Shown: positions 1 through 64,000 of the stretch, one piece after another
How the letters are laid out: each line of letters starts with the position of its first letter
Position numbering within the stretch: position 1 is the first letter of the stretch
Assembly: GCA_015140255.1 (NCBI GenBank)
Contig: CP043993.1
Location: 237,996 to 301,995 of the forward strand
Reading direction: 5' to 3'
DNA: 64,000 bases
From: Candidatus Stammera capleta
GTDB taxonomy: Bacteria; Pseudomonadota; Gammaproteobacteria; Enterobacterales; Enterobacteriaceae
Notes under the pieces: model-generated
What the model was told of the DNA's origin: nothing
Database searches by the model: none
What the model saw: only the letters and a program-made list of their open reading frames with translations
Program-made: the position numbers and the translations under genes

Positions 1-474
1 GAAAAAAATATTAATTGAGATATTTTAGATAATTTTTCTTTTATTTTATTAAGCATATTAAAAGCAATATTTTTATGAATTATTTCTCTACCTTTAAATT
101 TTATAATTATTCTAATTTTATTTCCTTTTTTTAATAAACGTTTAGTATTTTTAATTTTTATGTTAAAATCGTTTTTATTTGTAACAGGTCTAAATTTTAT
201 TTCTTTTATATTAATAGATTTATTTCTTTTAATTTTTTTTTTTTTTTTTATATAAAAATTTACCATAATTTAATATTTTACATATTGGAGGATTAGTATT
301 TGGATTTATTTCTACTAAATCTAAATTTTTTTTTTTAGCTAAATTTATTGCTTTATTTATATCAAATATTTTAATTTCTTCTTTTTTATCTCCAATAATT
401 TTTACTTTTAAAGATTTTATTTCATAGTTAATTCTATGTATTTTTTTATTTTTTTTTTTTATATTAATTTTAAT
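1..474 (-). CDS. infC: Translation initiation factor IF-3, 3' end outside window, frame interrupted by poly(A) tract
   Basis: IF-3 binds the 30S subunit and checks start-codon selection. Reading from an AUU codon at 474 gives a start ([18 protein letters not shown]) whose length to the RIN motif matches the E. coli protein exactly; E. coli infC also starts with AUU. The linker motif NTNPPICKILNYGKFLYK follows. A run of 17 A (233-249 on the complement) then puts the reading frame into UAA. One A fewer, or two more, restores a perfect continuation (INIKEIKFRPVT, then IIIKFKGREIIHKNIAF). The start overlaps the thrS stop by 5 bases, as part of the thrS-infC operon. The gene runs off the left edge. 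Identification is certain; whether the break is a real indel, transcriptional slippage or a sequencing error cannot be told here. Confidence 0.9.
233..249 (-). repeat. 17-base homopolymer (poly-A on coding strand) breaking infC
   Basis: The plus strand shows 17 consecutive T, so the infC coding strand reads TAT, 17 A, TT. The frame before the tract runs into UAA just after it, while the sequence after it encodes good IF-3 in the frame reached by removing one A. Long A runs are known sites of RNA polymerase slippage in A+T-rich symbionts. Confidence 0.9.
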
Positions 475-2275
475 AATTTACTCCTTCAATATTTGTTTTT
501 TTTTTAATTTTTTTAATTAAATTATTAATATTTGTTTTGAAAAATTTATTATTTAAAGTTTTTCTTACATTAATAGTATTAGAAAGAACTTCTTTATCGC
601 CGCATACTATCATGTAGGGTATCTTTTGTAAAGTATGTTTTCTAATTTTATAATTTATTTTTTTATTTTCAAAATCACTTATTGATCTAATATTATTTTT
701 ATTTAATATATGCAATATATTTTTACAATATTCTTTATGTTTTTTAGAAATACTCATTATTACTATTTGTATAGGAGTTAACCATATAGGTAATCATCCA
801 TTATTTTGTTCTAGTAATATACCTATAAATCTTTCTAATGATCCTAATATAGCTCTATGTATAATTATAATTTTTTTTCTAATATTTTTTTTATTTAAAT
901 AATTAATATTTAATTTTTCTGATAAATAAAAATCTAATTGTATAGTTCCACATTGTCATTCTTTATTATAGGAATCTTTAAGTGTGAATTCTATTTTAGG
1001 ACCATAGAAAGCTCCTTCTCCTTTTTTAATTTTAAATTTTATTTTTTTTTTTTTTAATATTTTTATTAATTTATTTTCTGATTTTTTTCATATTTTTTTA
1101 TTACCTAAATATTTTTTAGGTCTTGTTGATATATATATTTTAATATTTTTTAATTTTAAAAATTTATATATTTCTTGTATTATTTCAATACATTCAGATA
1201 TTTCTTTTTTAATTTGTTTTTGAGAACAAAATATATGTGCATCATCTTGAGTAAATGATCTAGTTCTCATTAATCCATATAAAGATCCAGAATATTCGTT
1301 TCTATGACATATACCAAATTCTGCTATTTTAATAGGTAAATTTTTATATGACCTTATTTTTTGTTTATATATTTCTATGTGTCCTAAACAATTCATTGGT
1401 TTAATACATAATTTTTTTTTTTCAGATTTTGTAGTAAATATAAATTTATTGAAATAATTTCAATGTCCACTATTTTTTCACATATTTTTATTAATTAAAT
1501 ATGCACTTTGTACTTCAATATAATTATATTTACGAATTTTTTTTCTTAATAATTTTTTAATATTTTTCAGGATTATAAATCCTTTATAATTTCAAAATAT
1601 CATTCCTGGAGTTTCTTTATTTATGTGATAAAAATTAATTTTTTTATTTATAATTCTATGGTCATTAATATTATATTTATTTTCTTCTGTTTTTTTTTTT
1701 TTAATTTTTATACATATTTTTAATATATATTGTTTTTTTATTTTTATATTAAATAAATTTATATTATTATATTTACTAAAATATTTTTTTATGAAATTTA
1801 GGTTCAATAATTTTTTTTTTTGATTTTTTTTATTTATTTTAATAAAATTATTTTTTTGTATATCTTTTTTAGATATTATATTTTTATCTATATTTATTTT
1901 TATATATTTATATATATTTTTTTTAATTTTTAATAGTATTTTTGTAGATATTTTTTTTTTATATTTTATATAAAAAAATAAATTATTATTTTTAATTTTT
2001 AATTTTATTAAACTAAAAATTTTTAATATTTTTTTAAGAGATTTAACTATTAAATATTGAAATATTTTATTAAGAATTTTTTTACCTAAAAAAGAATTAA
2101 TTTTTATTAAATTTAATTTTATATTTTTTTTAATTATATAATTTAAATTAACTATTTTTTTATTTATATAACCTGCTATATATTTATTGTTTTTTTTTTT
2201 TTTTTTTATAAATTCTAATATAGAAATATTTTTTTTAAATGAATATATTTTTCTTAAATATTTTATTTTAACCAT
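470..2275 (-). CDS. thrS: Threonyl-tRNA synthetase with degenerate editing domain
   Basis: Class II synthetase that charges tRNA-Thr; 601 residues against about 642 in E. coli. Catalytic motifs are clear: [12 protein letters not shown] (the Trp is UGA at 1592-1594), [32 protein letters not shown] (motif 2) and FTQDDAHIF. The anticodon-binding domain ends with [15 protein letters not shown]. The first 195 or so residues should hold the TGS and editing (N2) domains. A TGS-like [11 protein letters not shown] is visible, but the editing signature (HxxxH and CxxH) is absent: there is no His at all before residue 200. Start ATG at 2275; the stop overlaps the infC start. Aminoacylation is probably retained and editing of Ser-tRNA-Thr probably lost. 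Confidence 0.96.
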
Positions 2276-2378
2276 ATTAAATCCTTATATTATAATTATA
2301 TAATTATTATATAATAATAAGTGTTTCTTTATTAATTTTTATTAATGTATATATTTATTATTTATTTTGGTATATTTT

Positions 2379-2855
2379 GTGAATCGTAGAAATCATTTAT
2401 TTTTTTCTATTTTATTTATATTTTTTTTTATAAAAATATTTAATATCTTATATTATATAGATTTATGACATTTAATTTTTTTTAGTTTAATATCTTGTTT
2501 ATTACCAGATATAGATCATAAAAAATCCTTTTTAAGGAATAATTTTTTTTTTTTGTCTTGATTTATTTTTTTTAGTCATAGAAAAATTACTCATAGTTTA
2601 TTTTTATTAGTTATTCTATTTTTAATTTTATTTTATTTAAATTATTTAAATATTAATTTAAATTTAGATATTATAACTGGTACAATAATAGGTTATTTAA
2701 GTCATATTATAGCTGATATGTTTACATTTAGAGGAATATATTTTTTTTGACCTTTAAATATTAAAGTTAGATTTCCTTTATGATTTATTTTTTATAATAA
2801 AGTATTTATATATATTTTTTGTATTTTATTTTTTTTTTTATTATTATTTTTTTAA
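2379..2855 (+). CDS. ydjM: YdjM-family membrane-bound metal-dependent hydrolase-like protein
   Basis: A 158-residue inner-membrane protein of the YdjM (DUF457) family; the biochemical role of the family is unproven. Family motifs are present: LPDIDH at residues 42-47, HRKITHS at 67-73 and SHIIADM at 108-114, with hydrophobic segments between them. These His/Asp clusters resemble metal ligands. I chose the GTG start at 2379 because VNRRNHLFFSI aligns with the family N-terminus and no ATG lies in frame upstream. Several Trp are UGA. It is transcribed away from thrS and lies 8 bases before recC, so it probably leads that operon. In E. coli ydjM is LexA-controlled; I see no SOS box here. Confidence 0.85.
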
Positions 2856-2863
2856 AAATTTAT

Positions 2864-5800
2864 ATGTTTATATTATATCAATCAAATGATTTAGAAGTAT
2901 TACAACATGTAATGTTGTATAAATTTAAAAAAATAAAAAAACAAAGTTATACAATATTAGTATCTGATCATAATTCTTCTTTATTTTTAAAAATGTTTTT
3001 ATCTAAAAAATTAGGTATTTGTGCTAATTTTAATTTTATATTACCGGCAAAATTTATATGAAATATTTATAAAAAAATTATTCCTGAAATATCTGATAAT
3101 TATTTATTTAAAAGGAATAATCTAATATTTGTAATTATGAATTTATTACCTAAATTATTAAATTTAAAAGAATTTTTTATATTAAAAAAATATTTATCAA
3201 ATAATTTAGATAATATAAAATTATATGATTTATCTTATAAAATTGCAGATATTTACGATAAATATTTAATGTATAGAGTAGATTGATTATATAAATGAGA
3301 AAATTATGAATTAGTAGATAATTTAAGAAATAATATTCATCAATTATGACAATCAATTTTGTGAAGAGAAATAATTTTTTTCTATAATAAAAAATTTAAT
3401 TATATTTGAAATAGATGTAAAATTTATTATAATTTTTTAGATTTAATAAATAAAAATAATTTATTTTTTCTTAAAAAAAATTTATCTGAATTATTTATAT
3501 TTAATATTTCTTATTTACCTCCAATATATTTAAATACTATTTATTTATTATCTAAATATATTAATGTAAATTATTTTATAATTAATCCTAGTTCTAAATA
3601 TTGATATGATAATTTTATCTTTAATAAAAATATTTTAAATATTAATAATTTATATAATATAGATTCTTCTTTATATAAATTAAATCCTTTAATAATTAAT
3701 AATTGTGAGTTTTTTTTTGAATATTTGTCTTTAATTAAAAATTTTGATATCTATGAAATAGATTGTTTTGTTGAATTTAATAATAAAAATTTATTAAATA
3801 TCATTAAAAATGATATTTTAAATTTTAAAAATTCTTTTATTTCAAATAAAATTTCAATTAAGAAAAATAATTCAAATAGTTCTTTAACTATTAATACTTC
3901 TAATAATTATATTAATGAATTACTAAAATTAAAAAAATTTTTATTTTACTTGATAAAAAATAAGAAATATTACGTTAATGATATATTAGTATTAGTTACT
4001 AATATAGATATATATTACTCATATATACACACAATTTTTTCTGAGAAAAAATGTAAAAAATATTTACCTTATTATATAATGAATAAAAATTTAATTTTTG
4101 ATAATAAAATATTAGATTTATTTATAAATTTATTTAATATATCAAATACTAAATTTACATTTAGTAAAATTTTATATTTTTTAAAAAATGATGTTTTTTT
4201 AAAAAAATTTAATATTAGTAAAAATGAGTTTGATATTATTTCGAATATCATTAAAAACGATGGTATATGTAATGATATAAATAATTTTTTAATTAATGAT
4301 AAATTATGTGAATTTAATTATTCAATTTTATTAGATAGTATTAAACGTATATTATTAGGTTATGCTATTAATGATAAATATTGTTTTTGAAATAATATAG
4401 CTCCTTATTCTTTAATAGATAATAATTATTATCATAAATTAATAGGTAAATTAGCTGATTTTATATTTAAAATTATTTATTGAAGAAAAATTTTAAATAA
4501 AAAATATTTTTTAAATTCATGAATTGATATTTCTAGAAAATTTATAAATGTTTTTTTTTTAAAAAATATTGTAAGAAAAAATTTTTTCTTAAAAAGAAAA
4601 GTATGATTTAATTTTTATGAAAATTGTAAATTATTTTATTTAAAAAAAAAAATTGAAATAAATTTGTTTATTAAAATTTTTATTAATTTTATTAATAAAA
4701 AAAAATATAAATTATATTCTTTAAATCATATTAATTTTTCTTCTTTAATAACTTTGCATAATATACCTTTTAAAGTAATTTGTTTTTTAGGTATGAATGA
4801 TAATGTTTATCCAAATAAAGTAGTAAATTATAATTTTGATTTAATTCATTTTAATCCTAGATTAGGTGATAAAAATAAATTAAATTATGACAAATATGTT
4901 TTTATTAAATTTTTATTATCAGCTCAAAAAAAAATATATATAAGTTATTTAAATTATTCTTCTTTAAAAAATAATAAATTATTTCCTTCTATTTTAGTTA
5001 ATAATTTAATTAATTATTTAAATAAAAAAAAATATTTAAAATTTAATTATAAAAATAATTATATGAAATTTAATTTTTTAATTAAAAAAATTAATTATAT
5101 AAAAAAAAAAAAATTTAATTTTTTAATTAAATTTAAGAAAAAAAAAAAAATATTTCTTCATAAATTTTATTCTTTTTTATCACATCCAATTAGATATTAT
5201 ATGATTTATTTTTTTAAAGTTAATTATTTTTCGTTTAATACTACAGATTATTATAGTAATTTTTTTCAATTAAATATGAAAAAGTTTTATTCTTGTAGAT
5301 TAGATTTAATAAATATTTATTTAAAAAATAATGCTGTAAATGATAGTATAATGTTTTATTTACAAACTTTAAATTTATTTCCTATTAATTCTTTTGGAAA
5401 AATTATATGAGACAAAGAAAAAAAAAATATTTATTTTTTATTTAAAAAAATAGAAAAAATTTTTCCTAATATTAAAAAATATAATTTTTTTTGTAAAATA
5501 TATGATTTTGTGTTATATGGTACTATTAATATATGTAGTAATTATGGAGTTGTAAAATGATTACCTAAAAATATTAATTTAATAGATGCTTTAATTTTTT
5601 GAATAGAACATTTAATATATTGTTATTTAGGAGGTAAAAATCAAAGTATATTATATGGTTACAATGGTTCATGAAGTTTTTTATATGTAAATAAAAATTT
5701 ATCTGAAAAATTTTTATATAAATATATAATATATTATTATTATTTTAATAATAAAAATATATTTTTTTTACCTAAATCTAGTAATGTTTGAATTTTAAAT

Positions 5801-6031
5801 GCTTATCATTTAAAAAATAAAAAAATTTTAAATAGTTTTTGATGTGAAAAGGCTAAAAATAAGTTATTAAATACATTATATGGTAATTATTTTATTAGTG
5901 GAGAATTATATGATATATATATATTAAATTACTTAAAAAAATTTAATCTTAAAATTAGTTTAGATTTTATAATTTATAAATCTGAACAATGATTATATGA
6001 TATGTTTAGTTATTTAATTTTTGATATTTAG
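2864..6031 (+). CDS. recC: RecBCD subunit gamma (RecC)
   Basis: RecC is the non-catalytic subunit of the RecBCD helicase-nuclease; it splits the DNA strands and recognises Chi in E. coli. Encodes 1,055 residues (about 1,122 in E. coli). The N-terminus (MFILYQSNDLEVL) and the block KKLGICANFNFILPAKFIW, followed by NLLP, match the family closely. The central and C-terminal parts are much more diverged, with internal UGA Trp codons keeping one frame throughout. It ends in UAG, 4 bases before recB. Order recC-recB-recD lacks the ptrA that separates recC and recB in E. coli. Whether Chi recognition is kept cannot be judged by eye. Confidence 0.93.
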
Positions 6032-6035
6032 TATT

Positions 6036-9000
6036 ATGTATATAGAAAATAATTTTTTAAATATATATTTAGGTAGAAGTAATTTAATTGAATCATCTGC
6101 TGGTACTGGTAAAACTAATTTAATATCACTATTATATTTACGTTTATTATTTGGTATAAATATAGAAAAAAATTTTTTTAATCTATCATTGAATAATATT
6201 TTAATTGTTACTTTTACAGATGTAGCTACTTTAGAAATTAAAATTAGGATATTAAATAATATTAGAGATCTACGTTTATCTTGTATTAAAAAATATCCTA
6301 TTAATAATATTATAAAAGATTTTTATATATTTATTAAAGATATTCCTAATATAGTAAATTTATTAGTTAAATATGAATCTATTATAGATAATATTTCTAT
6401 TTTTACTATACACAGTTTTTGTAAAAGAATTATTTTTACTAATTTTATTGAATCTAAAATAAATTATAATAGTATTATTATAGATAATGAAAATAATTTA
6501 CTTTACAGAATAGTTATTATATTTTGACGTAAATTTTTTGGTCCTTTACATATTAATTTAATTAAAATTATTTCTAGTTATTGATTAAATCCAATAAATT
6601 TATTTAAATTTTTACTACCTATATGAAATTTAATGTTTTTTAATTTTAATATTAAAAATAAATATTTATCTATAGAAGATTGTTATAATAAAATAATATT
6701 ATTTATTGATAATTTTAAAAAATTATGATTATTAAATTATGAAAATATTTATGATTTTTTAATTTCTAAAAATAAAATTTTAAATTTATTAAAATTAAAA
6801 GATTTATTTATAGAAATTAATATTTGATGTAAAAATAAAACTATAGATTTTTATGTACCCTATAATTTAAAAAAAATAGGTTTTATAAATTTATATAAAA
6901 TATCTAATAAAATAAATTTTTTAAATTTTTATGATATATTTGTATATATAGATAAAATTTTTTTTAAAATAAAAGATTTAAAATTTTTTATTATTTTTTT
7001 ATGTATTAAATATATTAAAAAGAAAATTTTAAAAATAAAAAAAAAAAAATTGTATTTAAGTTTTAATGATTTAATTTTTAAATTAAATAAAATTATAATT
7101 AATGATCATAATAAAGTGTTAGTTAATTGAATAAGAAATAATTTTCCTATATTATTAATCGATGAGTTTCAAGACACAGATTTTTTACAATATAATATAT
7201 TTCGTAAAATATATATAAATCAACGTTTAAAATTAAATACTAAATTAATATTAATAGGTGATCCTAAACAATCAATTTATACATTTAGAGGTGCTAATAT
7301 ATTTAATTATATTAAATCTAAAAAAAACATAGATTTTTTATATACTTTAAATACTAATTGACGTTCTTCAATTAATTTTGTAAAAAGTATTAATTATTTA
7401 TTTAAAAGAATTAATAATCCTTTTATATTTAAGGATATAAAATATTTAAATACAAATTTTTCTTTAAAAAATAATTTTTATTTAATTAAAAATAATAATA
7501 TATGTCCTTCTATAAATTTTTATGTTTTAAATAATTTAGATAAAAGAAAATGGAGAGAGAATTTAGCTACAGTATGTGCTATTAAAATTTCTCAATTATT
7601 AGATTATAATAATAATTTTTTTATATTTAACAAAAAAAGTAAAAGATCTATTTTACCTTCTGATATAGCTATTTTAGTTCATACTAATTATGAAATTAAA
7701 TTAATTTTTAATATTTTTAAAAAATTTAATTTACCTATTAATACTTATCTAGAAAAAAGTAATATATTTCATACTCATGAAGCTAAAGAAATATTTTTTT
7801 TATTAAAATCTATATTAAATCCTGAATCTGTTACTTTATTAAGCAGTGCTTTATCTACTTCTTTTTTTAATTTAGATCTTATTTATATTAAAAATATCAT
7901 AAATAATGAATTTCTTTTAAATAAATGAATAAATAATTTTTATTTTTATAAAAATATTTGAGATAAAGATGGTATATCAGTAATGATGAATAGTATATTA
8001 AAAGTTAATAAAAATAATGTTTTTTTTTTAGAAAAAAATAAATTTTGATTAAATAATATACTTCATATAACTGAAATTTTAGAAAAGAAAAGTTATAGTT
8101 TTAAAAATAATTTTTTATTAATTTATTGATTAAATGATAATATTTCAGATGTAAACAAAGAAAAAAAAGATTTTTATATTAGATCTTTAAATAAAAATAA
8201 TGGTATAAAAATTTCTACTATACATAAATCTAAAGGTTTACAATATAATATTGTATGATTACCTTTTATAATAAATTTTAAAGTTAATAATTTTTATTTT
8301 ATATATCATAATAGAAAAAATTTTAGATTAAATATAGATTTATATAAATTACGTAAAAATTTATTTTTTGTTAATGAAGAAATTTATTCTGAAGAAATGC
8401 GTTTATTTTATGTAGCTATTACTAGATCAATATATCAATGCAATATTTTTTTGTATGAATTATTGAATAATAAAAATAAAAAATTTTGTTTTACATGTTT
8501 AGGTAGATTATTAAGTAATGATAGTAATTATAATTTTAGTAAAATTAATAAAATTATTAATAATAATATAAATTATAAACATATATATTTTAATTTTTTA
8601 GATTATATGTATTTGAAAGATAAAAAATTTATTTTTTTAAAAAATAATAATATTAAAAAAAAAACTAAAAAATATAAATATTATATAAATAAAAAATATA
8701 TATTAAATTTTTCAAAAATAATTTCTTTAAAATTTAAAAGGAAAAAAAAATTAAATATTGATAATTTATTTTTAATAAATAATAAAAAAAGTTTACCAAA
8801 AGGTAAAAAGGTAGGTAATTTTTTTCATAAGATATTAGAAAAAATTAATTTTTTAGATTTATTGGATAATAGTAATATTTTATATTATATGTTAAAATTT
8901 AGTATTTCTAAAAAATGATTTTTTTGTATTAAAAGAATTTTATTTAATTTTTTAAATGTTAATTTATTAAATAATTCTATTAATATTTTAAATAAAAAAA

Positions 9001-9503
9001 TTGTTTATTTTAAAGAATTTGATTTTTTTTTACCTATAGTAAATTTATTAAATTTACGTAAATTTATTAATATAATTAATAAATATAGTTTTGTACCTAA
9101 AATATATAAAAATATTGATTTTAATATAGATAGTATAAAAGGTTTTTTAAATGGTATTATTGATTTACTATTTATTTATAAAAATAAATATTTTATAATT
9201 GATTATAAATCTAATTGATTAGGTAATAGTTATATTAACTATAGTAATAAATGTTTATATAAAACTATTTATTTATATCGTTATGATCTACAATATCTAT
9301 TGTATGCAATAGCTTTACATAATTATTTAAAATTAAATATTAAAGACTATAATTATAATATTAATTTTGGAGGTATATATTATATATTTTTACGTGGATT
9401 ATTTTTAGATAATAAAAATAATTCAGTTACTGGTATATTTTATACCAAACCTAATTTTTTATTAATTAAAAAGTTAAATTATTTTTTTAAAATTAAAGTA
9501 TAA
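6036..9503 (+). CDS. recB: RecBCD subunit beta (RecB), helicase and nuclease
   Basis: RecB is the 3'-5' helicase and nuclease of RecBCD. Encodes 1,155 residues (about 1,180 in E. coli). Walker A is LIESSAGTGKT near the N-terminus. Other helicase motifs visible are ILIVTFTDVAT, LLIDEFQDTD, GDPKQSIYTFRGA, TIHKSKGLQY and LFYVAITRS. The C-terminal nuclease motif GIIDLLFIYKNKYFIIDYKS followed by NWLG (Trp = UGA) keeps the Asp-Asp-Lys active site, so nuclease activity is expected. The start MYIENN is an ATG at 6036. The stop UAA shares its last base with the ATG of recD, suggesting translational coupling. Confidence 0.96.
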
Positions 9504-11362
9504 TGTGCAATGAAATTAATTTATTTATATATAAATGTTTAGAAAGAAAAGAAATTAATTTAATAGATGTTTATTTTTCTCAGATATTTAAGTTTGGTAA
9601 TTTTAAATCTGATGTAGTAGTTTTGTTTACTATGTTGATTAGTTTATCTAGTAGATTAGGTAATACTTGTTTACCTATATGTAGATTACTATATGAAAAT
9701 ATATTTTCTAAATATATATTAGATTTTTTAAAATATTTTTTTAGTAGATATATATCTATTAGTAATTGTATAGAAATATTATTTGAATTTAATGTTTTGA
9801 GTAAATATTACTATTATAATAAGACTCCTTTAATTTTATATAATAATTGTATTTATTTATATAAATTTTGAGTATATGAAGAATTTATTGTTAATTTTAT
9901 TAATTTAAATTTTTTTAAAAAAAAAAATTTTAATATAGATAAATTGTTTTTGTTTAAATTTTTAAGTAAATTTTATTTAGATATATATCAGAAAATTTCT
10001 GTTTTAAATGTTATTTTAAATAAAATTTCTTTTATTTCTGGTGGACCTGGTACAGGTAAAACAACTTTAATATCAAAAATAATTTTAATTTTATATGAAA
10101 TATTTAAATTCAAATATAGTAATTGTATAAAAATTATTTCTTATACAGGTAAATCTGCTTCTAATATTACTTATTCTTTAAAAAAAAATTATGATATTTT
10201 AAATGTTAGTTATTCTTTAAAAAAAAAATTACCTTATAAAGCTACTACTATACATAAATTTTTAGGTTTTAACTATAATAAAAATATTTTTATAAATGAT
10301 AATACTAATACTAGTATTTTAATTATAGATGAAGCATCTATGATTGATATATCTTTAATGTATTATTTATTATCTTCATTAAAATATATTAAAAAAATTA
10401 TATTTTTAGGTGATAGTAATCAAATAAGTTCTATAGATTCAAGTTCATTATTTAATGAAATTTGTAATTTTTATATTAATAATTTTAAAATTAGAAATAA
10501 AATTCTTAAGAGAATATTTTTAAATATTTTAAATTTTAAAAAAAAGTATTATATATATTTATCTTATATTAGTAATATAAGTTTTTTAAGTAAAAATTAT
10601 CGTTTTAAAAAAAATATTTATTTATATAAGTTTATTAATTTCGTAAAATTAGGATATATAAAATATATAGATAAATTTTTATATAAAAATAATTTTAAAA
10701 ATAATTTTAATTTTTATGATTCTGAAAAATATAATTTTAATTTTTTATTAAATTTTTGTGTAAAAAATTATATGAAATATATTAATTTTATTAGATTTGA
10801 ATTTAATTTAAATAAAATATGAAATATATTTAATAAATTTCAAATTATTTCTGTTTTAAAAAAAACTTTTTATGGTGTTAATTTTTTAAATAAATATTTA
10901 AATAATTATTTTTTAAGTAATAATTTAGTTAAAAATATATTATATATTTCCAATTTAGATTGTTATCATTATTTAGGTGAACCTATAATTATTACTAAAA
11001 ATAATAATGATTTGAAATTATTTAATGGAGATATAGGTTTTTTTATTTTTAAAAAAAATAAGTTTAAATTGATGTTTTTAGATTATAATAAAAATAATAG
11101 ATTTATAAATTACTTAAATTTAACTGATTGAAAAAATAACTGAGTAATAACTGTTCATAAATCACAAGGTTCTGAATTTAAACATATATTATTAGTATTA
11201 CCAAATTATTTTTCTACTCTTTTAAATAGAGAATTAATTTATACAGCTATAACTCGTGCTAAAAGTAAAATTACTATTTATGCTAATAAAAATATTTTTT
11301 TGTCTAGTATAAATAAAAAAAAAAATGTTTTTACTAATGTATTAAATAAATTATTAATTTAA
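9503..11362 (+). CDS. recD: RecBCD subunit alpha (RecD), 5'-3' helicase
   Basis: RecD is the fast 5'-3' motor of RecBCD. Encodes 619 residues (about 608 in E. coli). Walker A is FISGGPGTGKTTLISKI near residue 180. Further motifs are YTGKSASN, TIHKFLGF, LIIDEASMIDISLM, FLGDSNQISS, NYRF and the C-terminal TVHKSQGSEFKH with YTAITRAKSK. All helicase motifs are therefore intact. Start ATG at 9503 overlaps the recB stop by one base (TAATG). Ends in UAA, 12 bases before the MarC-like gene, which may be co-transcribed. Confidence 0.96.
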
Positions 11363-11374
11363 TATTTAAAATTT

Positions 11375-11988: not shown

Positions 11989-12723
11989 TTAATTATTAAT
12001 TCTTTTTATAATATATCAAGATATTATATTAAAATTAATTCAATTTATATTAATATTTTTTTTAATATTTATGTCATATTTTTTAATTAATTTTAAAATA
12101 TTTAAAAAATTTTTTTTATTAAATTTATTAACATTTTTTATAATAAATTTAAATAAGATATTTAAAATAATTAGTTTATTTAAATTATTTTTTTGTATTT
12201 TTTTTAGTATATATATATTTTTATATATGTTTTTTTTTTTAATTGATTTTATTCATAATTTTATTATTTTATTATTTTCATATTTATTTTTTGTAATTTC
12301 ATATTCTATTTCTTTTTTTTTTTGTTTACATTTTATTAATTTTACAAAATTATATTTTTTAAATTTATTTATTTCTTTTTTAAGTAAGAAATTTGTAAAT
12401 TCTATAATAAATATTATAAATATATTTGTTGTTTTTTTTATATAGAATTTGTGTATTATATTTTTAATAATCAATTTATTTAAATTATTAATTTTTTCTA
12501 TAATATTTAATATTATAATTCTTTTTTTGTAAAAAAAATTTTGAAAAAATATTTTTTCGTATATATATTTAAAATTTAAATTTTTATCTACTATTAAGTT
12601 TATAATTATAATTTTATTATATTTTTTTTGAATTTTTTTTTTTATATATTTTTTATATTTATTTTTTTTAATTATATTATTTCCATATATATAAAAAATA
12701 TTCTTTATTTTTTTTTTTTTCAT
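11989..12723 (-). CDS. holA: DNA polymerase III delta subunit, shortened
   Basis: Delta is the clamp-loader subunit that opens the beta clamp. Encodes 244 residues against about 343 in E. coli. The N-terminus IFYIYGNNIIKKNKYKKYI fits the family start, and the C-terminus (ILKLIKKYDINIKK, then WINFNIISWYIIK) fits the delta helical domain. Similarity is weak, and the call leans on context: it lies directly after leuS, as in the E. coli order leuS-lptE-holA, with lptE missing. Trp codons are UGA. The start ATG abuts the leuS stop (TAAATG). The frame is continuous through several A tracts. Confidence 0.75.
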
Positions 12724-15186
<2,463 letters not shown>

Positions 15187-33706: not shown

Positions 33707-35050
33707 TTGTTACAAAAATTATGACAAAAATGTTTAGATAAATTAAAATCTTTTTTATCTAAAAAAAAATTTAATATGTGAATATTACCTTTACAAGTAA
33801 TATTACGTAGTAATTCTATAGATATATATGCTCCTAATTACTTAGTTCTTAACTATGTTAAAATTAATTATTTAGAATATATTAATAATTTTTTTTTAAG
33901 TTTAAATATTGATTTAAATTCAATTAATTTTTTAATTGGTAGTGGATTAAATAAAAAAAATAAACAAAATATTTTATTAAATTTTGGTAATTGTATTTTA
34001 TCTAAAAAATATGTATTTAATAATTTTATTTATAGTAAATCTAATTTATTAGCTTATCGTACTTCACTTAATTCATGTTTTTTTATTCCCAAAAAATGTA
34101 AATTATTATTTTTATATGGTTGTACTGGATTAGGTAAAACTCATTTAATTAATTCTATTGGTAATAAGATTAACGATATATATAAATATGATAAGAAAAT
34201 AGTTTTTTTTGAAACAGAAAAATTTATTAGTAATATAAAAATTTATTCTTTTAAAAATAATATAGAAATTTTTAGAGGTTATTTAAAATCAGCTAATGTA
34301 TTATTAATGGACAATATTCATCATTTAGAAAAAGATAAATTGTCACAAAAAGAATTTATATATATATTAGATTATTTTTTAAACAAAGAATGTATATTAG
34401 TTTTTACTTCATATAAAAATATTTATAATTTAAATTTATATAATAAAATTATTTCTAAAATTTCTTCTGGTTTAATAATTAAAATTAATAATATTGATTA
34501 TAATATTAGATATAAATTTTTATATTTAAATTTTAAAAAAAATAATTTTTTTTTAAGTAATAAAAATATTATTTTTATATCTAAATTAAATATTTTAAAT
34601 GTATACAAATTAAAAGGTATTTTAAAAATATTATTTATTTATAGAGACTATTTGAATTTATCTGATCGTATTAATATTGATTCTATAAAATATATGTTAT
34701 ATAATTATTTTGATTTAGATAAAAATTTTTTTTTAGTTTGTATTATACAAAATATAGTTTCTAATTATTTTAAAATTAGAATTGTTGATTTGTTATCTAA
34801 ATTTCGTTATAAATATTTGATTTATCCTAGACAAATATCTATAGCTATTAGTAGAAAATTAACTAATTTTAGTTTATCTAAGTTAGGTTTTTTTTTTAAG
34901 GTAAATCATTCTACTATAATATATTCTTGTAAAAAAATTAATAAGTTGTGTATTATAAATAATTATATTAAATCTGAATTTAATAATTTAATTAAACTAG
35001 TTTTAATGTCTAAATATGAAATTTTTTATAAAAAAAAAAAAAATATTTAA
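33707..35050 (+). CDS. dnaA: Replication initiator DnaA, diverged AAA+ core
   Basis: DnaA binds the origin and opens it in an ATP-controlled way. Encodes 447 residues (467 in E. coli). Domain I: LWQKCLDKLK and FNMWILPLQV (Trp = UGA). Walker A is GCTGLGKTH at residues 138-146 (usually GGTGLGKTH). Walker B reads LLMDNIHH instead of LLIDDIQ. The arginine-finger stretch (SRFGWGL in E. coli) reads SKISSGL. Sensor II RELEGAL reads YKLKGIL. Domain IV keeps YPRQISIAISRKLTNFSLSK, but DHTT reads NHST. The TTG at 33707 is the only reasonable start, with GAGG before it. The gene overlaps dnaN by 35 bases. Confidence 0.93.
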
Positions 35051-36174: not shown

Positions 36175-38595
<2,421 letters not shown>

Positions 38596-39930: not shown

Positions 39931-40266
39931 ATGAAAAATAAACTAATTGATTTTGTTGAAAAAAAATATTTTAAAAAGGATATACCTATATTAAAATCTG
40001 GATATTTAATAGAAATAAAATTGTGAATTATAGAAAGTTCTAAAAAAAGATTACAAACTTTTAAAGGAGTTATTATTTCTGTAAAAAATAAAGGTTTAAA
40101 TTCTTCTTTTATATTAAGAAAATTATCTTATGGAGAAGGAGTAGAAAGATTATTTTTGATTCATTCACCACTTATATATTCTATATTAATAGTAAAAAAA
40201 TTTTTTTTTAATAAATCTAAATTATATTTTTTACGTAAAAAGAAAAAAAATTTTTATGTTAAATAA
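39931..40266 (+). CDS. rplS: 50S ribosomal protein L19
   Basis: A 111-residue protein (115 in E. coli). SGYLIEIKLWIIESSKKRLQ with TFKGVIIS, ILRKLSYGEGVERLFLIHSP and KLYFLRKKKK match L19. Trp is UGA. A TGAGG precedes the ATG by 4 bases. The last 11 bases overlap the start of truA. Confidence 0.95.
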
Positions 40267-41020
40267 AAAATATAGATTATTAGTTTGTGTGGAATATTGT
40301 GGTTATAATTATATTGGTTGACAAAAACAACTACATAGTAAATTAAGTATTCAAGAAATTATTGAAGAATGTTTATCTAAAATAGCTAAACATAAAATAA
40401 AAATTTTTTCTTCTAGTAGAACTGATTCTGGTGTAAATAGTTTAGGACAGATGTTTCATTTTGATACTTTTTGTTATAAAAAAGAAAAGGAATGATTATT
40501 AATTTCTAATTTTAATTTACCTCGTGATATAACTTTTAAATCAGTAAAATATGTCAAAAGTAATTTTCATGCTCGTTATAATGTTTATTCTAGAAGATAT
40601 TTATATATTATTTTAAATTCTAATATTAGATCAAGTTTTTTAAATAATAGGGTTATGTATTATTTAGGTAAAATCAGTATTAGTTTAATGTTAAAAGCAT
40701 CAAAATTTTTATTAGGTAAGCATAATTTTATTTCTTTTCAATCTTCTGGTTGTGAATCTAAAAATACTTATAAAAATATAATGCATTTAAATATTTTTAG
40801 AATAAATAGATATATTATTTTTGATATTAAAGCAGATTCTTTTTTGTATCGTATGATACGTAATATTATTAGTAATTTATTATTAATAGGTATGAGAAAA
40901 TTTTCTGTAAATTGAATTAAATATGTTTTATCTATTAAAAAAAAAGGTTTTTCAAAAAATTTATTAGTTAAACCATATGGTTTATATTTATATAAAATAG
41001 AATTTTTTGATTTTTTTTAA
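40256..41020 (+). CDS. truA: tRNA pseudouridine(38-40) synthase TruA
   Basis: Makes pseudouridine at tRNA positions 38-40. Encodes 254 residues (270 in E. coli). YCGYNYIGWQKQ (UGA Trp), catalytic SSSRTDSGVNSLGQMFHF with the nucleophilic Asp, FHARYNVYSRRYLYIILNS, NFISFQSSGCESKNTYKNIM and FLYRMIRNIISNLLLIG match the family. The ATG at 40256 lies inside rplS, so translation is probably coupled. Confidence 0.94.
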
Positions 41021-41059: not shown

Positions 41060-41446
41060 ATGAATTTTACTAAAATTATTTATATAACAAGTTATTTAAT
41101 TATATTATTATCTATTTTAAATAGTTTTAAAAGAAATATTTTAAGAGAATTATTTTCTTTATTTTTTTTTTGTTTTTTTTATTTTTTTTTAAGTAAAGTT
41201 TTTTATTTTTATTTTAAAAAATATTTATTTATTTTTTTTAAGAAAAGAATTATTTTTTTAATATTTTTTTTATTTTTAATATTTATAATTTTTATTATAG
41301 AAAATTTTTTGTTTTTTTTAATAAAAAATTTTTTTTTAATTTTTATTGATTTTTTAAGTTTTTTTTTGAATATAATGTTAGGATTTATAAAAGGTATATT
41401 AATAATATATTTTTTAAGTTATTTATATAAAAATTTTTTTTTATAA
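41060..41446 (+). CDS. cvpA: CvpA-family membrane protein
   Basis: A 128-residue protein with about four hydrophobic segments. FKRNILRELFSLFFFC corresponds to the family G-F-x-R-E-x-x-S-L motif, and LSFFLNIMLGFIKGILIIY to the DRxLG...GxxRGxLIV block. E. coli CvpA (162 residues) is required for colicin V export and affects envelope behaviour; its molecular activity is unknown. In E. coli it lies in the same neighbourhood, downstream of truA, which supports the call. Phe/Ile richness makes similarity by composition a risk. Confidence 0.7.
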   Translation: MNFTKIIYITSYLIILLSILNSFKRNILRELFSLFFFCFFYFFLSKVFYFYFKKYLFIFFKKRIIFLIFFLFLIFIIFIIENFLFFLIKNFFLIFIDFLSFFLNIMLGFIKGILIIYFLSYLYKNFFL

Positions 41447-52115: not shown

Positions 52116-53540
52116 TTATTTTTTGATTATTCTATTTAATATAGGGGTTAGTATTAACATTATTATTGATATTAACATACTATACAATCCTATTCTTAAA
52201 AAAAAATTTGAATATATATTAATTGATTGTAATGTATGTATGTTTTTATTAAATGTTATTAAATTAGCTATGTTACCTGATATTATAATAGATGTTGATG
52301 TTATTAAAAATCATACTCCTATAGTAAATCCAATTAATTTTTTTGGTACTAATTGTGTTATCATAGATAATCCTAATCCGGATATCATAAGTTCACCAAT
52401 ACTTTGAAATGCATAACTTAAAATTAATCATATTGGTGATATTAAACCTTTATTATTTGTATTTAAATATATACCGATAGGTAATATAATAAATGATATT
52501 GAACTAAGAAACATTCCTATTGTAAATTTATTTATAATTGATATTTGTTTTTTAAATTTTTTATATATATAAGATAATATAGGACTGAAAATTATTATTC
52601 AAAAAGGATTTAATGCTTGTAATTGTTCTGGAATAAAATTTATTCCAAATATTGTATGTTTTACATTTTTTTTAGCAAAAAAATTTAATGAAGTAGGTAT
52701 TTGATTATATAATATAAAAAATATTGTTGCTTCTATTATTAGAATAGATGTTACTAATATTTTTTTTTTTTTTTTTTTATTTAATAGAAAAATTTTTTTA
52801 ATAAATATTAATAAAGTTAAAAAAATTATTAATTTAGTAATTTTTTTAATAATATATTGTTTATTTAGTAGATTGAAAATCATTATTAAAATAATGATTA
52901 AAGTTACTGCAAGTATAGTAATATTTTTTTTTTTTATTTTTTTAAAATCTGGTTTTGAACCGTAATTTTTAATTTTTTTTTTAAATAGTATATATATTAT
53001 TAAATTAATAATTAATCCTAATACAGGTAATATAAATGTTATTTGTCATCCAAATTTTTTAACTATTAATGGTGTTAATATTGTAGATAATAATGATCCT
53101 ATATTAATAGACATATAATACATAGTAAAACCTGTATCAGGTGAAAGAGATTTTTTTTGATATATATCTGCTAGTAATGATGATATATTTGGTTTAAATA
53201 AGCAACTTCCTAATGATATTAGAGATATTCCTAAATATAATATGTTAATATTTTTATTTGATAAAAAAATGTTACTATAACCTATAAGTAATATTATTAT
53301 TCCTATAAATAATGCTCTTTTGTATCCTATAATTTTATTACCTAATCAACTTCCTATTATTATCAATCCATAAGTTATAGCATTAAATGAAGTTAATATA
53401 TTTACAGCTTCTTCTTCTATTAGTAATACTTTTTTGATTAAATATAGAATAATTATAGATTGTAAACTATAAAATCCAAAACGTTCTAATAATTCTATTA
53501 TTAATATAATATAAACTGATTTGGGTTGTTTAAATATCAT
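52116..53540 (-). CDS. dtpA: Proton-dependent di/tripeptide transporter
   Basis: POT-family MFS importer. Encodes 474 residues (500 in E. coli DtpA). [20 protein letters not shown] holds the ExxER proton site; then [64 protein letters not shown] (UGA Trp) and [20 protein letters not shown]. Closest by eye to DtpA/DtpB; the exact paralog is not certain. It lies 26 bases upstream of manX on the same strand, so sugar and peptide uptake may be co-expressed. Confidence 0.92.
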
Positions 53541-53554
53541 TTTTTTTTAAATAA

Positions 53555-54796: not shown

Positions 54797-55441
54797 ATGA
54801 GTAATTATTTTCAAAAAGAAATTTTAAAATATATATTAATATTAGTTAAAAATATTTCTGGTTTATATATATATGAATTAATGGATTTTTTAGGTATATC
54901 TTATAGTAATAAATATATTATAGATAAAGGTTGAATTGGTCGAGTAATAGAAAATTATATAATAAAAAAAAAATTTAAAGGTAAAATATGTGATTTAAAT
55001 TTTTTAAATTTAGAACTTAAAACAATTTCTTTAAATTATTTTAATATTCCTAATAATGAAGTATTATTAATGTCTTTTAAATTATGTAATTTTTTTAAAA
55101 TTAATTTTATAAATTTATTTTTTAAAATTAAAAAAATTTTATGATTACCTATTATAGGAAAAAAAAACACTTTTTTTTTGTATAGAATTGTAGGTAATTA
55201 TTTTATTACTATTTTAAATAAAAAAAATATGTGTATTTTATTTTATGAATTAGAAAATATTTTTAATTATATACTCGAAAAAAAAATTATTTTAAACAAT
55301 TATCTAAGTAAAAATTTTAAAATACAATTTATTTTTTTAAATAAAAATAAAAAACATTTTTTTAATTTAAATAATTATTATGTTAGATTATATTTCAATA
55401 AAAATTTTTTAAAAAATATTCTTTTAAATAGATTATATTAA
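54797..55441 (+). CDS. mutH: DNA mismatch repair endonuclease MutH
   Basis: MutH nicks the unmethylated strand at hemimethylated GATC sites after MutS and MutL find a mismatch. Encodes 214 residues (229 in E. coli). DKGWIGRVIENYI (UGA Trp) matches the conserved DKGWIG. DLNFLNLELKTI keeps Asp66, Glu73 and Lys75 at exactly the spacing of the E. coli catalytic Asp70, Glu77 and Lys79. YFNKNFLKNILLNRL matches the C-terminal KKNF block. It converges on lysS with a 4-base overlap. Function implies Dam methylation elsewhere in the genome. Confidence 0.9.
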
Positions 55442-56835
55442 TTTTTTTTTAATGTAGGAAAAAAAATTACTTCTTTAATAGAAAAATTATTAGTAATTAA
55501 CATTACTAATCTATCTATACCTATTCCTACTCCTGATGTAGGAGGTAATCCATATTTTAAAGCGTGAATATATTTTTTATTTAGAAAATTTTTATTTTTA
55601 TTTTCTTCTTTTAATTGTTGTGTAAATTTTTTTTTTTGTTTTTTATGATTATTAAGTTCTGAAAAACCATTTGCTATTTCCATTCCTCCTATGAATAATT
55701 CAAATCTTTCAGCAATATTTTTATTTTTTTTATTTTCTTTTGCTAAAGGAGATATATTTGAAGGATAATCAATAATAAATGTTGGTTGAATAAGTTTTTT
55801 TTCTACCTTATTTTGAAATATTTTAAATATAATTTTTTCTGTTGATATATTTAAAGTATTTATACCTATTTTTTTTGCTGCATATATAATTTTTTTTTTA
55901 TTTTCTAAATCTTTTATAGATTTAAATAAATTAGTATATTTATATATAGATTTTTTAAGTGATATTTTTTTGTATGGTATTTTAAAATTAATTTTTTTTT
56001 TTTTAAATATAATATTTTTATTCTTTAAAAATAAAGAATTAATGATATATAAAAACATTTTTTCTATTAATTCTATCATATTTTTATAATTAGAATAAGC
56101 TTGATAAATTTCTATCATTGTAAATTCTGGATTATGTTTAGTTGATATTCCTTCGTTTCTAAAATTTCTGTTTAATTCAAATATTTTAGTAAATCCACCA
56201 ATAATTAATTCTTTTAGATATAATTCTGGTGCAATACGTAAATACATTTTAGTATTTAATTTTTTATGATATGTATAAAATGGTTTAGCTGTAGCACCTC
56301 CTGGAATTAAATGTAACATAGGAGTTTCTACTTCTAAAAAATAATTTTTATTTAAAAATTTTCTTATTAAATAAATTATTTCAATTCTTTTTAAAAAAGT
56401 TTTTCTTGTTTTTGGATTTATTATTAAATCTAAATATCTTTTACGAAATTTTGACTCTTTGTTTTTTAATTTATGAAATTTATCTGGTAAATATTTATAT
56501 ATTTTATTAAGTATTTTTATTTCAGTACATTTTATTGTTAATTCTTTCGTATTAGTTTTAAATAATTTTCCTTTTACATAAATTATATTTCCAATTTTAA
56601 TATCTTTAATAATTTTATTTTTTTTTTTTTTATATAGATATTTTTTATTAATTAATATTTGAATATTATTATATATATCTTGTATATTAATAAATATATT
56701 TTTTCCCATATCTCTTTTGGAAATTATTCTACCTGAAATTTTTTTATATATATTTTTTTTTTCAATTATTTGTTTAGTTTTTTTAGAATAACATTTTATT
56801 ATATTATTAATGTCATCTAATTTATTTATATTCAT
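55438..56835 (-). CDS. lysS: Lysyl-tRNA synthetase (class II)
   Basis: Charges tRNA-Lys; 465 residues (505 in E. coli). The OB-fold anticodon domain has ISGRIISKRDMGKNIFINIQ. Class II motifs: KFRKRYLDLIINPKTRK, EVETPMLHLIPGGATAKPF, LRIAPELYLKELIIGGFTKI, FRNEGISTKHNPEFTMIEIY, ELFIGGMEIANGFSELNN and GLPPTSGVGIGIDRLVMLIT. No Trp codons. In enterobacteria prfB lies directly upstream of lysS; here the upstream neighbour is pth. Confidence 0.96.
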   Translation of the reverse strand: MNINKLDDINNIIKCYSKKTKQIIEKKNIYKKISGRIISKRDMGKNIFINIQDIYNNIQILINKKYLYKKKKNKIIKDIKIGNIIYVKGKLFKTNTKELTIKCTEIKILNKIYKYLPDKFHKLKNKESKFRKRYLDLIINPKTRKTFLKRIEIIYLIRKFLNKNYFLEVETPMLHLIPGGATAKPFYTYHKKLNTKMYLRIAPELYLKELIIGGFTKIFELNRNFRNEGISTKHNPEFTMIEIYQAYSNYKNMIELIEKMFLYIINSLFLKNKNIIFKKKKINFKIPYKKISLKKSIYKYTNLFKSIKDLENKKKIIYAAKKIGINTLNISTEKIIFKIFQNKVEKKLIQPTFIIDYPSNISPLAKENKKNKNIAERFELFIGGMEIANGFSELNNHKKQKKKFTQQLKEENKNKNFLNKKYIHALKYGLPPTSGVGIGIDRLVMLITNNFSIKEVIFFPTLKKN

Positions 56836-56889
56836 TATTTTATTATATTTGTATGTATGATTCTATTTTAAATTTAATTTATGTTTAAT

Positions 56890-57441
56890 TTAATTTAAAA
56901 AATTTTGTATTTGATTTAATTTTTTATTTTTTATTCATAAATTAATATAATATATAGATTTTTTTATAGATTTATATATTAATTTTTTTTGTTCTTTATT
57001 TGGTGAAGATAAAACAAATTTTTTTAAATTAATTTTTGTTTTTGGTCTTCCTATACCTATTCTAAGTTGGTAAAAATTGTCTTTTTTAAGATATTTAATT
57101 ATATTTTTTATTCCATTATGTGTACTTTTTTTTCCTATATGATTTTTAATTTTTGTTTTTCCAGGTTTTAAATTTATTTCATCATGTACTATTAATATTT
57201 CTTTATTTTTAATTTTTTTTTTTTTTTTAATATTATATATATTTTTTCCACATAAATTTATATATGTTTTAGGAATGTATAAAAAAATATTTTTTTTTTT
57301 TATTTTTTTTTTATATATTTTATTGAATTTAATATTTTTTATATTTAAAAATTTTTTTATAAATCATACTCCTACATTATGTCTAGTATCAAATAATTTT
57401 TTGTTTATATTTCCTATACCTATAATAATTTTTATACACAT
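56890..57441 (-). CDS. pth: Peptidyl-tRNA hydrolase
   Basis: Releases tRNA from prematurely dropped peptidyl-tRNA. Encodes 183 residues (194 in E. coli). IKIIIGIGNINKKLFDTRHN carries the catalytic His and the conserved Asn; KTYINLCGKNIYNI, ILIVHDEINLKPGKTKIK (catalytic Asp) and YQLRIGIGRPK follow. Two Trp are UGA. A 16-A run in the middle is read in frame. Reads toward lysS, 54 bases away. Confidence 0.93.
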
Positions 57442-57624: not shown

Positions 57625-58692
57625 ATGGATGATAATTTTATTAAATATAAAATTAATAAAATTAGTAATAAATTAAATAAATTAAATAAAATTATAAATT
57701 TAAATTTTAATTATAAAAATAAAAAGTATTTGTATTTAATAAAAAAATATAAAAATTTATATAAAATTAAAGTTTGTTTTGATAATTGAATTAAATATAA
57801 TAAAGAACTTAATTCAGCTAAATTATTAATTAATGATAGTGAATTAGGTTTATTAGCAAAAGATGAAGTTAAAAAATTAAATATTTTGGTATTAAATTAT
57901 TATAAAAAATTAAAAGATTATTTAATAAACTTAAATAAAGATTCTAAAGATACTTTAAATGTATATTTAGAAATATATGCTGGAACAGGTGGTCATGAAG
58001 CTTCTTTATTTGTTGGCGATTTATTTAAGATGTATATAAAATATTGTGAATTGATGAATTGAAAAGTAGAATTAATTAATGTAAATAGCACTGATTTAAA
58101 TGGTGGATATAAAGAAATAATTATGAAAATTATTGGTAAAAATGTTTATGGTAAATTAAAATTTGAATCTGGTGGTCATAGAGTTCAAAGAATACCTATA
58201 ACTGAATCACAAGGTAGAGTACATACTTCTACATGTATAGTTGCAGTTATACCTGATATTCCTAGTAAAAATTTATTAGTAATTCGTAATGAAGATATTA
58301 AAATAGATACATTTAGATCATCTGGTGCTGGTGGTCAACATGTTAATACTACTGATTCTGCTGTACGTATTACTCATTTACCTACTAAAATAGTAGTTGA
58401 ATGTCAACAAGAAAGATCTCAACATAAAAATAAATCTAAAGCTTTAGAAGTTTTAAAAGCTAGAATTTATTCTTATAAATTAGAAGAGAAAAATAAAAAG
58501 AAAATAAAAGAAAAGAAAAAGTTATTAGGTACTGGTTATAGAAATGATCGTAATCGTACTTATAATTTTACTCAAAATCGTGTTACTGATCACAGAATAA
58601 ATTTAACTATTTATTCTTTAAATGAAATTTTAAATGGTAAATTAGATTTATTAATTAATCCTTTATTAGAAAAAATTAATAAAAATATATAA
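57625..58692 (+). CDS. prfA: Peptide chain release factor 1
   Basis: RF1 ends translation at UAA and UAG. Encodes 355 residues (360 in E. coli). The domain 2 recognition loop is [18 protein letters not shown], with a PxT motif as in RF1 (RF2 has SPF). The GGQ catalytic motif is [40 protein letters not shown] is typical. UGA Trp codons occur in domain 1. Its stop codon is followed immediately by prmC. As the only release factor seen, it fits a code without UGA stops. Confidence 0.96.
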
Positions 58693-59538
58693 ATGAATAT
58701 TATTGAATGGTTTAATTATATTAATATTTATAAAAAATATACTTATATAAGTTATAGTGATATTTTAATAATTTTAGAATATATATTTAAAAAAAATATT
58801 TTATGAATTTTATCTAATTTAAATTTTAAAATTAATAATTTTAAGTTAAATATGTTAAATATTTTTTTAATTAAAAGATTACGTGGTGAACCAATATTTT
58901 ATATTATTAATAAAGGTTTTTTTAGATATATATCTTATACTATATATCCTGATATATTTATACCTCGTTATGATACTGAAATAATGGTAAATTATGCTAT
59001 AAATTTAATTAAAATAAATAATTTTTCAAATATATTAGATTTAGGTACAGGTTCAGGAGTAGTAGCTTTATCTATTGCTAAGTCTTGTATTTATTCTTTT
59101 GTTATAGGTATAGATATAAATATGTTATCTATCAATTTATCTAAATATAATGCTTTAAAATTGAATATTAAAAATGTTTTGTTTATTCAAAGTAATTGAT
59201 TTTCAAATTTAAAAGGTAAAAAAAAATATTTTGATATTATAATTAGTAATCCTCCATATATTGATAAAAATAATATTTATTTTAGTAATTTTAGTGATTT
59301 ACGTTTTGAATCTTATTTTTCTTTGTTTTCAAATTTTAATGGTATTAAAGATATTTTATTTTTAATAAAAAAATCTTATTATTTTTTAAAAGATAAAGGT
59401 TGATTAATTATAGAGCATTCTTCTAGTCATATAGATATAGTTAGATATCTATTTTCAAAAAAATATTATAATGTTTTTAGTTATAAAGATTATAATAATT
59501 TATATCGTTTTACAGTAGGTCAAAAAAATATTTTCTAA
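58693..59538 (+). CDS. prmC: Release factor glutamine methyltransferase
   Basis: Methylates the Gln of GGQ in release factors. Encodes 281 residues (277 in E. coli). LRGEPIFYIINKGFF, FIPRYDTEIMVNYAI, SAM-binding NILDLGTGSGVVALSIAKS and the catalytic ISNPPYID are clear. Several Trp are UGA. The ATG follows the prfA stop directly, the usual prfA-prmC pair. The 3' end overlaps argS by 4 bases, converging. Confidence 0.94.
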
Positions 59539-63010: not shown

Positions 63011-63033
63011 ATTTTATTTAATTAATATTTATT

Positions 63034-63504: not shown

Positions 63505-63540
63505 ATTAATTTTATTATATATAATTTTTTTTTTTTCTTG

Positions 63541-63546: not shown

Positions 63547-63618
63547 ATTTAGAATTAGTTAATTATTTGCTAGTTTAAATTTTAAGTAAAATTAAGTTTT
63601 TTATAGAAAGGTAATATA

Positions 63619-63831
63619 ATGTCTACAAGAGTTAAAGGTAGTGTAAAGTGGTTTAATGAATCAAAAGGTTTTGGTTTTATTACACCAGATAATGGTGATA
63701 AAGATGTTTTTGTACATTTTTCTGCAATTCAAAGTAGTGGTTTTAAAACTCTTACTGAAGGTCAATCTGTTGAATTTGAGATTACTGATGGAGCTAAAGG
63801 TCCTTCAGCTACTAATGTAGTACCTTTATAA
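63619..63831 (+). CDS. cspE: Cold-shock-domain RNA chaperone, CspE-like
   Basis: A 70-residue OB-fold nucleic-acid-binding protein. [20 protein letters not shown] carries RNP1 (KGFGFIT) and [10 protein letters not shown] carries RNP2. The start [22 protein letters not shown] and overall pattern are closest to E. coli CspE, with CspC the alternative. Its Trp is UGG. It is among the least diverged proteins in the window, which suggests high expression. CspE melts RNA hairpins and acts as an antiterminator in E. coli. Confidence 0.93.
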
Positions 63832-63896
63832 GGTTATTTTAAAATTATTTATATTTGAAAAATATTTAAATAATTTTCATAATTTATTAGTATTTA

Positions 63897-63921
63897 AATG
63901 AATTATTTTAAATAATTCATT
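63897..63921. terminator. Palindrome between cspE and a convergent gene end
   Basis: AATGAATTATTT and AAATAATTCATT form a 12-bp inverted repeat with almost no loop, 66 bases after cspE and overlapping the stop of the minus-strand gene at the right edge. Its placement between convergent genes suggests a two-way terminator, but no clear T run follows on either strand. Confidence 0.45.
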
Positions 63922-64000
63922 TATTACTAATAATTTTGTATCTACCTTTTATTTTTTTTTGATATATATATTTAGAAATAAATTTTATATATCTTTGTAT
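63908..64000 (-). CDS. C-terminal end of an unidentified gene (partial)
   Basis: The last 93 bases are open on the minus strand in one frame only and encode 30 residues, IQRYIKFISKYIYQKKIKGR then YKIISNKWII, ending in UAA. The penultimate-region Trp would be UGA. The tail is basic and aromatic. I do not recognise the family, and the piece is too short to be sure it is a gene; the tight genome and the open frame make it likely. Confidence 0.4.

Follow-up and report, generated by a model that had tools for sequence, protein, structure and literature searches.

The 64,000-nucleotide stretch analysed here (the window; bases 237,996-301,995 on contig C1) belongs to a two-contig genome of 307,816 bp, whose completeness is given as 91.51%, and its GC content lies between 13 and 21% in 4-kb steps. 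Our subject is the codon UGA in its genes, which stands at tryptophan positions, together with release factor 2 (RF2, encoded by prfB) and tRNA-Trp in this genome and its relatives. The first-pass annotation had placed the window in a gammaproteobacterium, and by its GH28 and GH67 genes and nearest GyrB relatives the genome is Candidatus Stammera capleta: the small contig (5,821 bp) encodes a GH28 polygalacturonase (PF00295, E 6e-61) adjoined by a GH67 enzyme (alpha-glucuronidase family; both Pfam domains), and in a GyrB scan of one genome per species, covering 84,980 GTDB species, the top five named matches are this symbiont (62-75%), followed by five Candidatus Lightella (54-55%). The GH67 gene (L032 2370-4307, minus strand) itself carries 16 in-frame UGA codons. 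Passages of PMC12905250 describe a polygalacturonase encoded by all sequenced S. capleta and joined by either a rhamnogalacturonan lyase or an alpha-glucuronidase; the window genome fits the alpha-glucuronidase kind.

That UGA means tryptophan in Stammera is already known. Table 1 of PMC8629427, citing Salem et al. 2017, lists this tortoise-beetle symbiont under a UGA change from stop to W, and the window genome is a member of the published group, sharing its genus, reassignment, GH28 polygalacturonase, size of about 0.3 Mb and very low GC. What is added here is the pattern of RF2 and tRNA-Trp across the genus; no description of the RF2 pattern was found in the open-access literature searched, supplements excluded.

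UGA codons in the genes of the window

Many of the window genes found under translation table 4 are broken by table 11. From 59 table-4 open reading frames of at least 100 aa we chose 49 genes, with shorter genes left out; 47 of the 49 proteins match an NCBIfam family at E <= 0.001, some below the curated cut-offs, and the scans gave no family match for 11989-12723 and 41060-41446. Each UGA was masked as X before alignment to the Escherichia coli K-12 partner, and counts given for 41 genes exclude the eight frames for which no partner was fetched. The UGA codons that the first-pass annotation had named in ThrRS, GyrB, DtpA, MutH, LeuRS (two) and DnaA were all located, and the coordinates that it had given are exact:

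470-2275, minus strand: thrS, with the in-frame UGA (Trp) of GMIFW at 1592-1594, minus strand
2819-6031, plus strand: recC, with 18 in-frame UGA and a TAG end (E. coli alignment)
12724-15186, minus strand: leuS, with 22 in-frame UGA and 1 UGG (E. coli alignment)
13819-13821: in-frame UGA of ESSW in LeuRS
14716-14718: in-frame UGA of NWCP in LeuRS
33722-33724: in-frame UGA of LWQ in DnaA
36175-38595: gyrB, with 4 UGA and 1 UGG; the in-frame UGA of ALQW lies at 36961-36963, plus strand
52599-52601: in-frame UGA of LNPFW in DtpA
54932-54934: in-frame UGA of DKGWIG in MutH

UGA stands at conserved tryptophan positions, as genetic code 4 has it: the E. coli residue opposite the 138 UGA codons of the 41 genes is W in 104 cases and a gap in one (kept in the total), and the other 33 rows are scattered over residues, as expected at 19-64% identity to E. 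coli. Seen from the other side, 209 aligned E. coli tryptophans face UGA 104 times, UGG seven times and other codons 98 times. Across all 49 frames UGA provides 155 of 166 tryptophan codons and UGG the remaining 11 (6.6%), a ratio close to what AT bias alone gives and without any sign that UGA is avoided, the share of G in six other A/G-ending codon pairs being 3.9% (Fisher p = 0.10). UGG persists, as had been pointed out, in enolase, pyruvate kinase and a csp-like gene; the notion that it is retained preferentially through better reading by CCA was dropped, the difference between 6.6% and 3.9% not being significant.

The 49 frames end in TAA (44) or TAG (5), a tally that proves nothing alone, since table-4 frames exclude UGA ends by construction; recC, pntA, manY, argS and acpP end in UAG, as first read. 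An independent test, in which gene ends were compared with the E. coli ends when UGA is read through, shows an overrun in five of the 41 genes, by at most 10 residues (the maximum in sufE), and none of these five has a UGA among its last 30 codons. Such a late UGA occurs in four genes: it faces W in tyrS and pth, F in recC (13 codons before the end) and R in rnpA, where it lies three codons before the end and may be an old UGA stop. UGA is thus not needed as a stop in the window genes, rnpA being the single unclear case, and both the reassignment and the claim that no gene needs UGA as a stop agree with these counts. Selenocysteine at UGA was set aside, since the residue is tryptophan and no UCA tRNA was found; selB was not searched for.

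A side observation concerns the stretch 2819-11362, where recC, recB and recD each form an open frame of nearly full length, with 36 in-frame UGA in total. Such a recBCD set seems unusual in a 0.3-Mb symbiont.

Release factors and tRNA-Trp across Stammera

The release factor genes of the window and their neighbourhood are the following:

55438-56835, minus strand: lysS, downstream partner in the ancestral prfB-lysS pair (profile match and synteny)
56836-56889: pth-lysS gap of 54 bp, the site of prfB in a sister species with the order pth-prfB-lysS (synteny)
56890-57441, minus strand: pth, upstream neighbour of the lost prfB (profile match and synteny)
57625-58692, plus strand: prfA, encoding release factor 1 (RF1), the sole RF-1 domain match of the genome, with 2 in-frame UGA (TIGR00019, above cut-off)
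58693-59538, plus strand: prmC-like methyltransferase (release factor GGQ methylation), directly after prfA (passes the hemK_fam cut-off; scores 191.8 bits for PrmC, where the cut-off is 199.1)

prfB was not found in the window genome; the full-genome search that had been suggested returned one RF-1 domain match, prfA. In E. coli prfB lies directly upstream of lysS. A sample of 60 genomes from the GTDB family, taken out of a larger group with each genus represented once, has it above the curated cut-off in 58; the exceptions are the window genome and a genome of 49% completeness, in which the matches are partial. Within the genus, the RF-1 domain search gave a prfA match alone in 11 of 12 Stammera and two matches in the twelfth, equated with the record CP043991 because positions and scores of the matches agree. 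A tblastn search with the intact RF2 in the pth-lysS-prfA regions of the other 11 matched prfA only, and remnants outside those regions were covered by the RF-1 domain search.

The CP043991 prfB is open, encodes 358 aa, lies between pth and lysS and overlaps the lysS start (L181 832-1908; L194 6742-7815). It scores 342 bits against TIGR00020, below the curated 370, where prfA scores 191, and the best-matching solved structures of its product are RF2. The protein retains the SPF, HTSF and GGQ motifs and differs at 16 of the 89 positions that do not vary among nine other RF2s, one of which is a fragment; its identity to E. coli RF2 is 38%, against 51-54% for Lightella. The gene has a GC content of 16% and no UGG, and its UGA codons 137, 148 and 307 each stand opposite a tryptophan of E. 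coli RF2. CP043991 shares the code of the window genome: in the aligned parts of 27 orthologues it uses 58 UGA and six UGG, and 45 of those UGA codons are matched by a UGA in the window (this comparison retains the rluC rows from other genomes, probably the rluD paralogue at 35-37% identity, and its Lightella counts rest on five or six genes each). The tRNA-Trp genes of the two genomes are identical, letter by letter. The first-pass annotation had taken a prfB accompanied by tRNA-Trp(CCA) alone as incompatible with the reassignment, a rule that fails here, where CP043991 has both yet uses UGA at tryptophan positions.

Is this prfB merely a gene not yet eroded? At fourfold sites the window genome and CP043991 differ at 28 of 71 positions in lysS, 48 of 141 in gyrB and 23 of 77 in prfA, and in a neutral simulation (substitutions only, without indels, composition assumed) the frame stayed open in 3 of 2000 runs at 0.1 draws per site and in 0 of 2000 at 0.15. 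Because divergence is this high and simulated neutral frames rarely stay open, the gene was probably kept by selection through most of the time since the split from the window genome.

A tree built on GyrB, PrfA, LysS and, except for Lightella and Sodalis, Pth joins the 12 Stammera in one clade (100/100), sister to Lightella (100/100), with the window genome and CP043991 as a sister pair (100/100). The gyrB genes of all 12 Stammera contain two to four in-frame UGA each, whereas those of all five Lightella have five UGG and no UGA; the five Lightella encode two release factors, and the glyQ (PF02091) of one Lightella has a UGA stop at its natural end, with glyS-like sequence behind. Lightella therefore appears to have retained the usual code, which would place the change on the Stammera stem. 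As a separate observation, the codon-reading tripeptide SPF is replaced by NPI in RF2 of all five Lightella (L175, L177-L180), and an RF2 fragment from Nardonella has NLL at that position; in AT-rich symbionts with the usual code, the specificity of RF2 may be drifting.

It had been suggested that a tRNA-Trp with a UCA anticodon be sought. The tRNA scan of the window genome yielded 29 tRNAs over the Rfam cut-off, plus transfer-messenger RNA (tmRNA); no UCA anticodon is present among the 29, and the sole tRNA-Trp found, outside the window at C1:158,749-158,821, is CCA. With the tRNA-Trp model at E<=1e-15, each of the 12 Stammera has exactly one gene, always CCA. All 12 share a 5-bp anticodon stem, a 27-43 pair that is A-U or G-U, A24 (paired with U11), a U13-G22 wobble and a 9-nt D-loop; tRNA-Trp of E. 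coli and Sodalis has G24, C13-G22 and an 8-nt D-loop, and that of Lightella has A24 (5/5), C13-G22 and an 8-nt D-loop. The window-genome gene (L011 1425-1499, minus strand) also seems to be one base shorter than its E. coli counterpart in the T-arm or variable loop, which leaves an imperfect T-stem. trpS and miaA are each present in 12 of 12 Stammera, and the window holds a further gene for anticodon-arm modification:

40256-41020, plus strand: truA, tRNA pseudouridine 38-40 synthase (profile match)

A24 is the base of the Hirsh UGA suppressor, tRNA-Trp G24A, as described in PMC13092985. Stammera tRNA-Trp(CCA) resembles that suppressor, its own read-through activity being only predicted, and goes beyond it in the U13-G22 wobble and 9-nt D-loop of all 12 genomes. 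A24 as a sufficient cause of UGA reading was rejected, the base being found also in five of five Lightella and in other tRNA-Trp loci of the order; it may be a pre-adaptation to UGA reading. The U13-G22 wobble and the longer D-loop, specific to Stammera among the rows compared, are candidate causes.

Decoding of UGA and the order of events

By sequence, then, the genome has UGA at tryptophan positions, no overrun of the E. coli ends beyond 10 residues, RF1 without RF2, a CCA anticodon only, and genes for TrpRS and MiaA. With CCA the only anticodon found, UGA would be read either through a C34-A mispair or by a tRNA whose C34 has been altered. We posit that TrpRS charges this one tRNA-Trp(CCA), whose A37 is probably modified, and that the tRNA reads UGG in the normal way and UGA through the C34-A mispair in the third position; this near-cognate reading would suffice once no RF2 competes. 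Tree and synteny suggest that the Stammera stem still encoded RF2 when UGA passed to tryptophan there; two or more independent deletions of RF2 would have come afterwards, one of them in the window lineage after its split from CP043991. The RF2-bearing CP043991 uses UGA as tryptophan, which argues that UGA was probably reassigned before RF2 loss. Given the 100/100 pair, RF2 losses would number at least two if prfB was never regained; on the best tree they would number three, the third resting on a node with 84.4/81 support. To this explanation as a whole, UGA as a tryptophan sense codon through a near-cognate tRNA-Trp(CCA) with RF2 deleted after the reassignment, we assign a probability of about 0.78.

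Several observations weigh against it. The motifs of CP043991 RF2 suit recognition of UGA and are hard to reconcile with UGA as tryptophan in that genome, and near-cognate reading of 93% of tryptophan codons (155/166, 49 frames) is demanding. Within the GTDB order, A24 occurs at 10 of 29 tRNA-Trp loci (6 of 20 parsed by script and 4 of 9 read by eye, out of 40 genomes searched, 36 of which had a match; the usual code is assumed for those genomes). The known 4-bp anticodon stem mechanism was rejected, the stem having 5 bp in all 12 Stammera. Only one of the 12 has prfB; the absence of RF2 from the others comes from assemblies given as 86-98% complete, and that of UCA from 11 of them comes from the tRNA-Trp model and not from a full tRNA scan. 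The deepest nodes within Stammera have only moderate support, and decoding of UGA as tryptophan is deduced here from sequence.

Four alternatives were weighed. In trypanosomatid mitochondria, tRNA-Trp undergoes C-to-U editing. If the C34 of the Stammera tRNA, encoded as CCA, were likewise edited after transcription or given a modification that pairs with A, UGA would be read cognately, in keeping with the finding of CCA alone in all 12 genomes despite the dominance of UGA among window tryptophan codons; we regard this as unlikely, though the least so of the alternatives. RNA sequencing in the NAR 2026 paper (PMC13092985) found bacterial 4-bp CCA tRNAs unedited at the anticodon, Stammera not being among those named there. 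That CP043991 re-acquired prfB, after a single loss in the Stammera ancestor that preceded or accompanied the code change, would explain why a single genome of 12 has the gene and why its product is more distant from E. coli RF2 than those of Lightella; the native look of the gene, which immediately precedes lysS just as its E. coli counterpart does, follows pth, is AT-rich and has its three UGA at E. coli tryptophans, makes this improbable.

Slightly less probable still is an ambiguous UGA, read in part as tryptophan and in part acting as a stop, slow or rescued, which would truncate many proteins and leave reassignment incomplete. The near-cognate tRNA as the only one found, the presence of tmRNA and the RF2 kept by one sister species speak for it, but the balance of UGG and UGA is near that of AT bias, also in gyrB, prfA and the synthetase genes, and nothing known terminates at UGA in the window genome, which has no RF2 match. 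Nonsense mutation in decaying genes, a natural thought for a strongly reduced, AT-rich genome, has next to no probability: the counts already exclude it, with 104 of the 138 UGA on E. coli tryptophans, frames otherwise open almost to the E. coli end, and in-frame UGA in the gyrB of every Stammera.

Stammera among lineages that read UGA as tryptophan

The main text of PMC13092985 lists S. capleta with a 5-bp tRNA-Trp(CCA). XS4, a dinoflagellate symbiont of the Fastidiosibacteraceae, is by the account in PMC12213064 likewise a gammaproteobacterium with UGA as tryptophan and tRNA-Trp(CCA) only, and, like CP043991, it still encodes RF2, with the codon-contacting residues conserved; it is a precedent for RF2 retention under this code. 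Its tRNA-Trp has a 4-bp anticodon stem, against 5 bp in 12 of 12 Stammera, and unlike XS4 the window genome is without RF2. Candidatus Zinderia insecticola, as described in parts of PMC13092985 and PMC10333215, shares with the window genome UGA as tryptophan, CCA only and the loss of prfB, and differs from Stammera in its 4-bp stem and in being a betaproteobacterium. In the 4-bp-stem systems with tRNA-Trp(CCA) (Blastocrithidia, Zinderia, XS4) positions 27 and 43 are unpaired, whereas in Stammera they pair. Candidatus Hodgkinia cicadicola and the Mollicutes (passages of PMC2704378 and PMC4014445) also combine UGA as tryptophan with loss of prfB, but they read UGA by a UCA anticodon, and the 12 Stammera yielded no tRNA-Trp with UCA. 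Lineages with this code and without RF2 have prfA and no prfB; the window genome matches them, but one of the 12 Stammera keeps prfB.

Whether RF2 loss or capture of UGA by tRNA-Trp comes first is a standing question, and close relatives within Stammera stand on either side of RF2 loss with the same reassigned code. McCutcheon 2009 (PMC2704378) treats RF2 loss as the unifying force of UGA recoding and a distal tRNA-Trp mutation as an enabling first step; Stammera would fit the first two steps, a distal change in tRNA-Trp and then RF2 loss, without the third, a UCA anticodon. The retained RF2 of CP043991 argues against RF2 loss as the trigger in the Stammera lineage. We think it likely that Stammera forms a natural time series in which an unaltered CCA anticodon captured UGA under RF2, the RF2 of CP043991 became specific to UAA or self-limiting, and two to three independent losses followed without a UCA anticodon evolving. 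If this is true, a full-length, selected RF2 with an intact SPF motif in CP043991 depends on three UGA codons read as tryptophan within its own gene. Stammera, like XS4 earlier, breaks the usual expectation that UGA as tryptophan accompanies a UCA tRNA and the absence of prfB.

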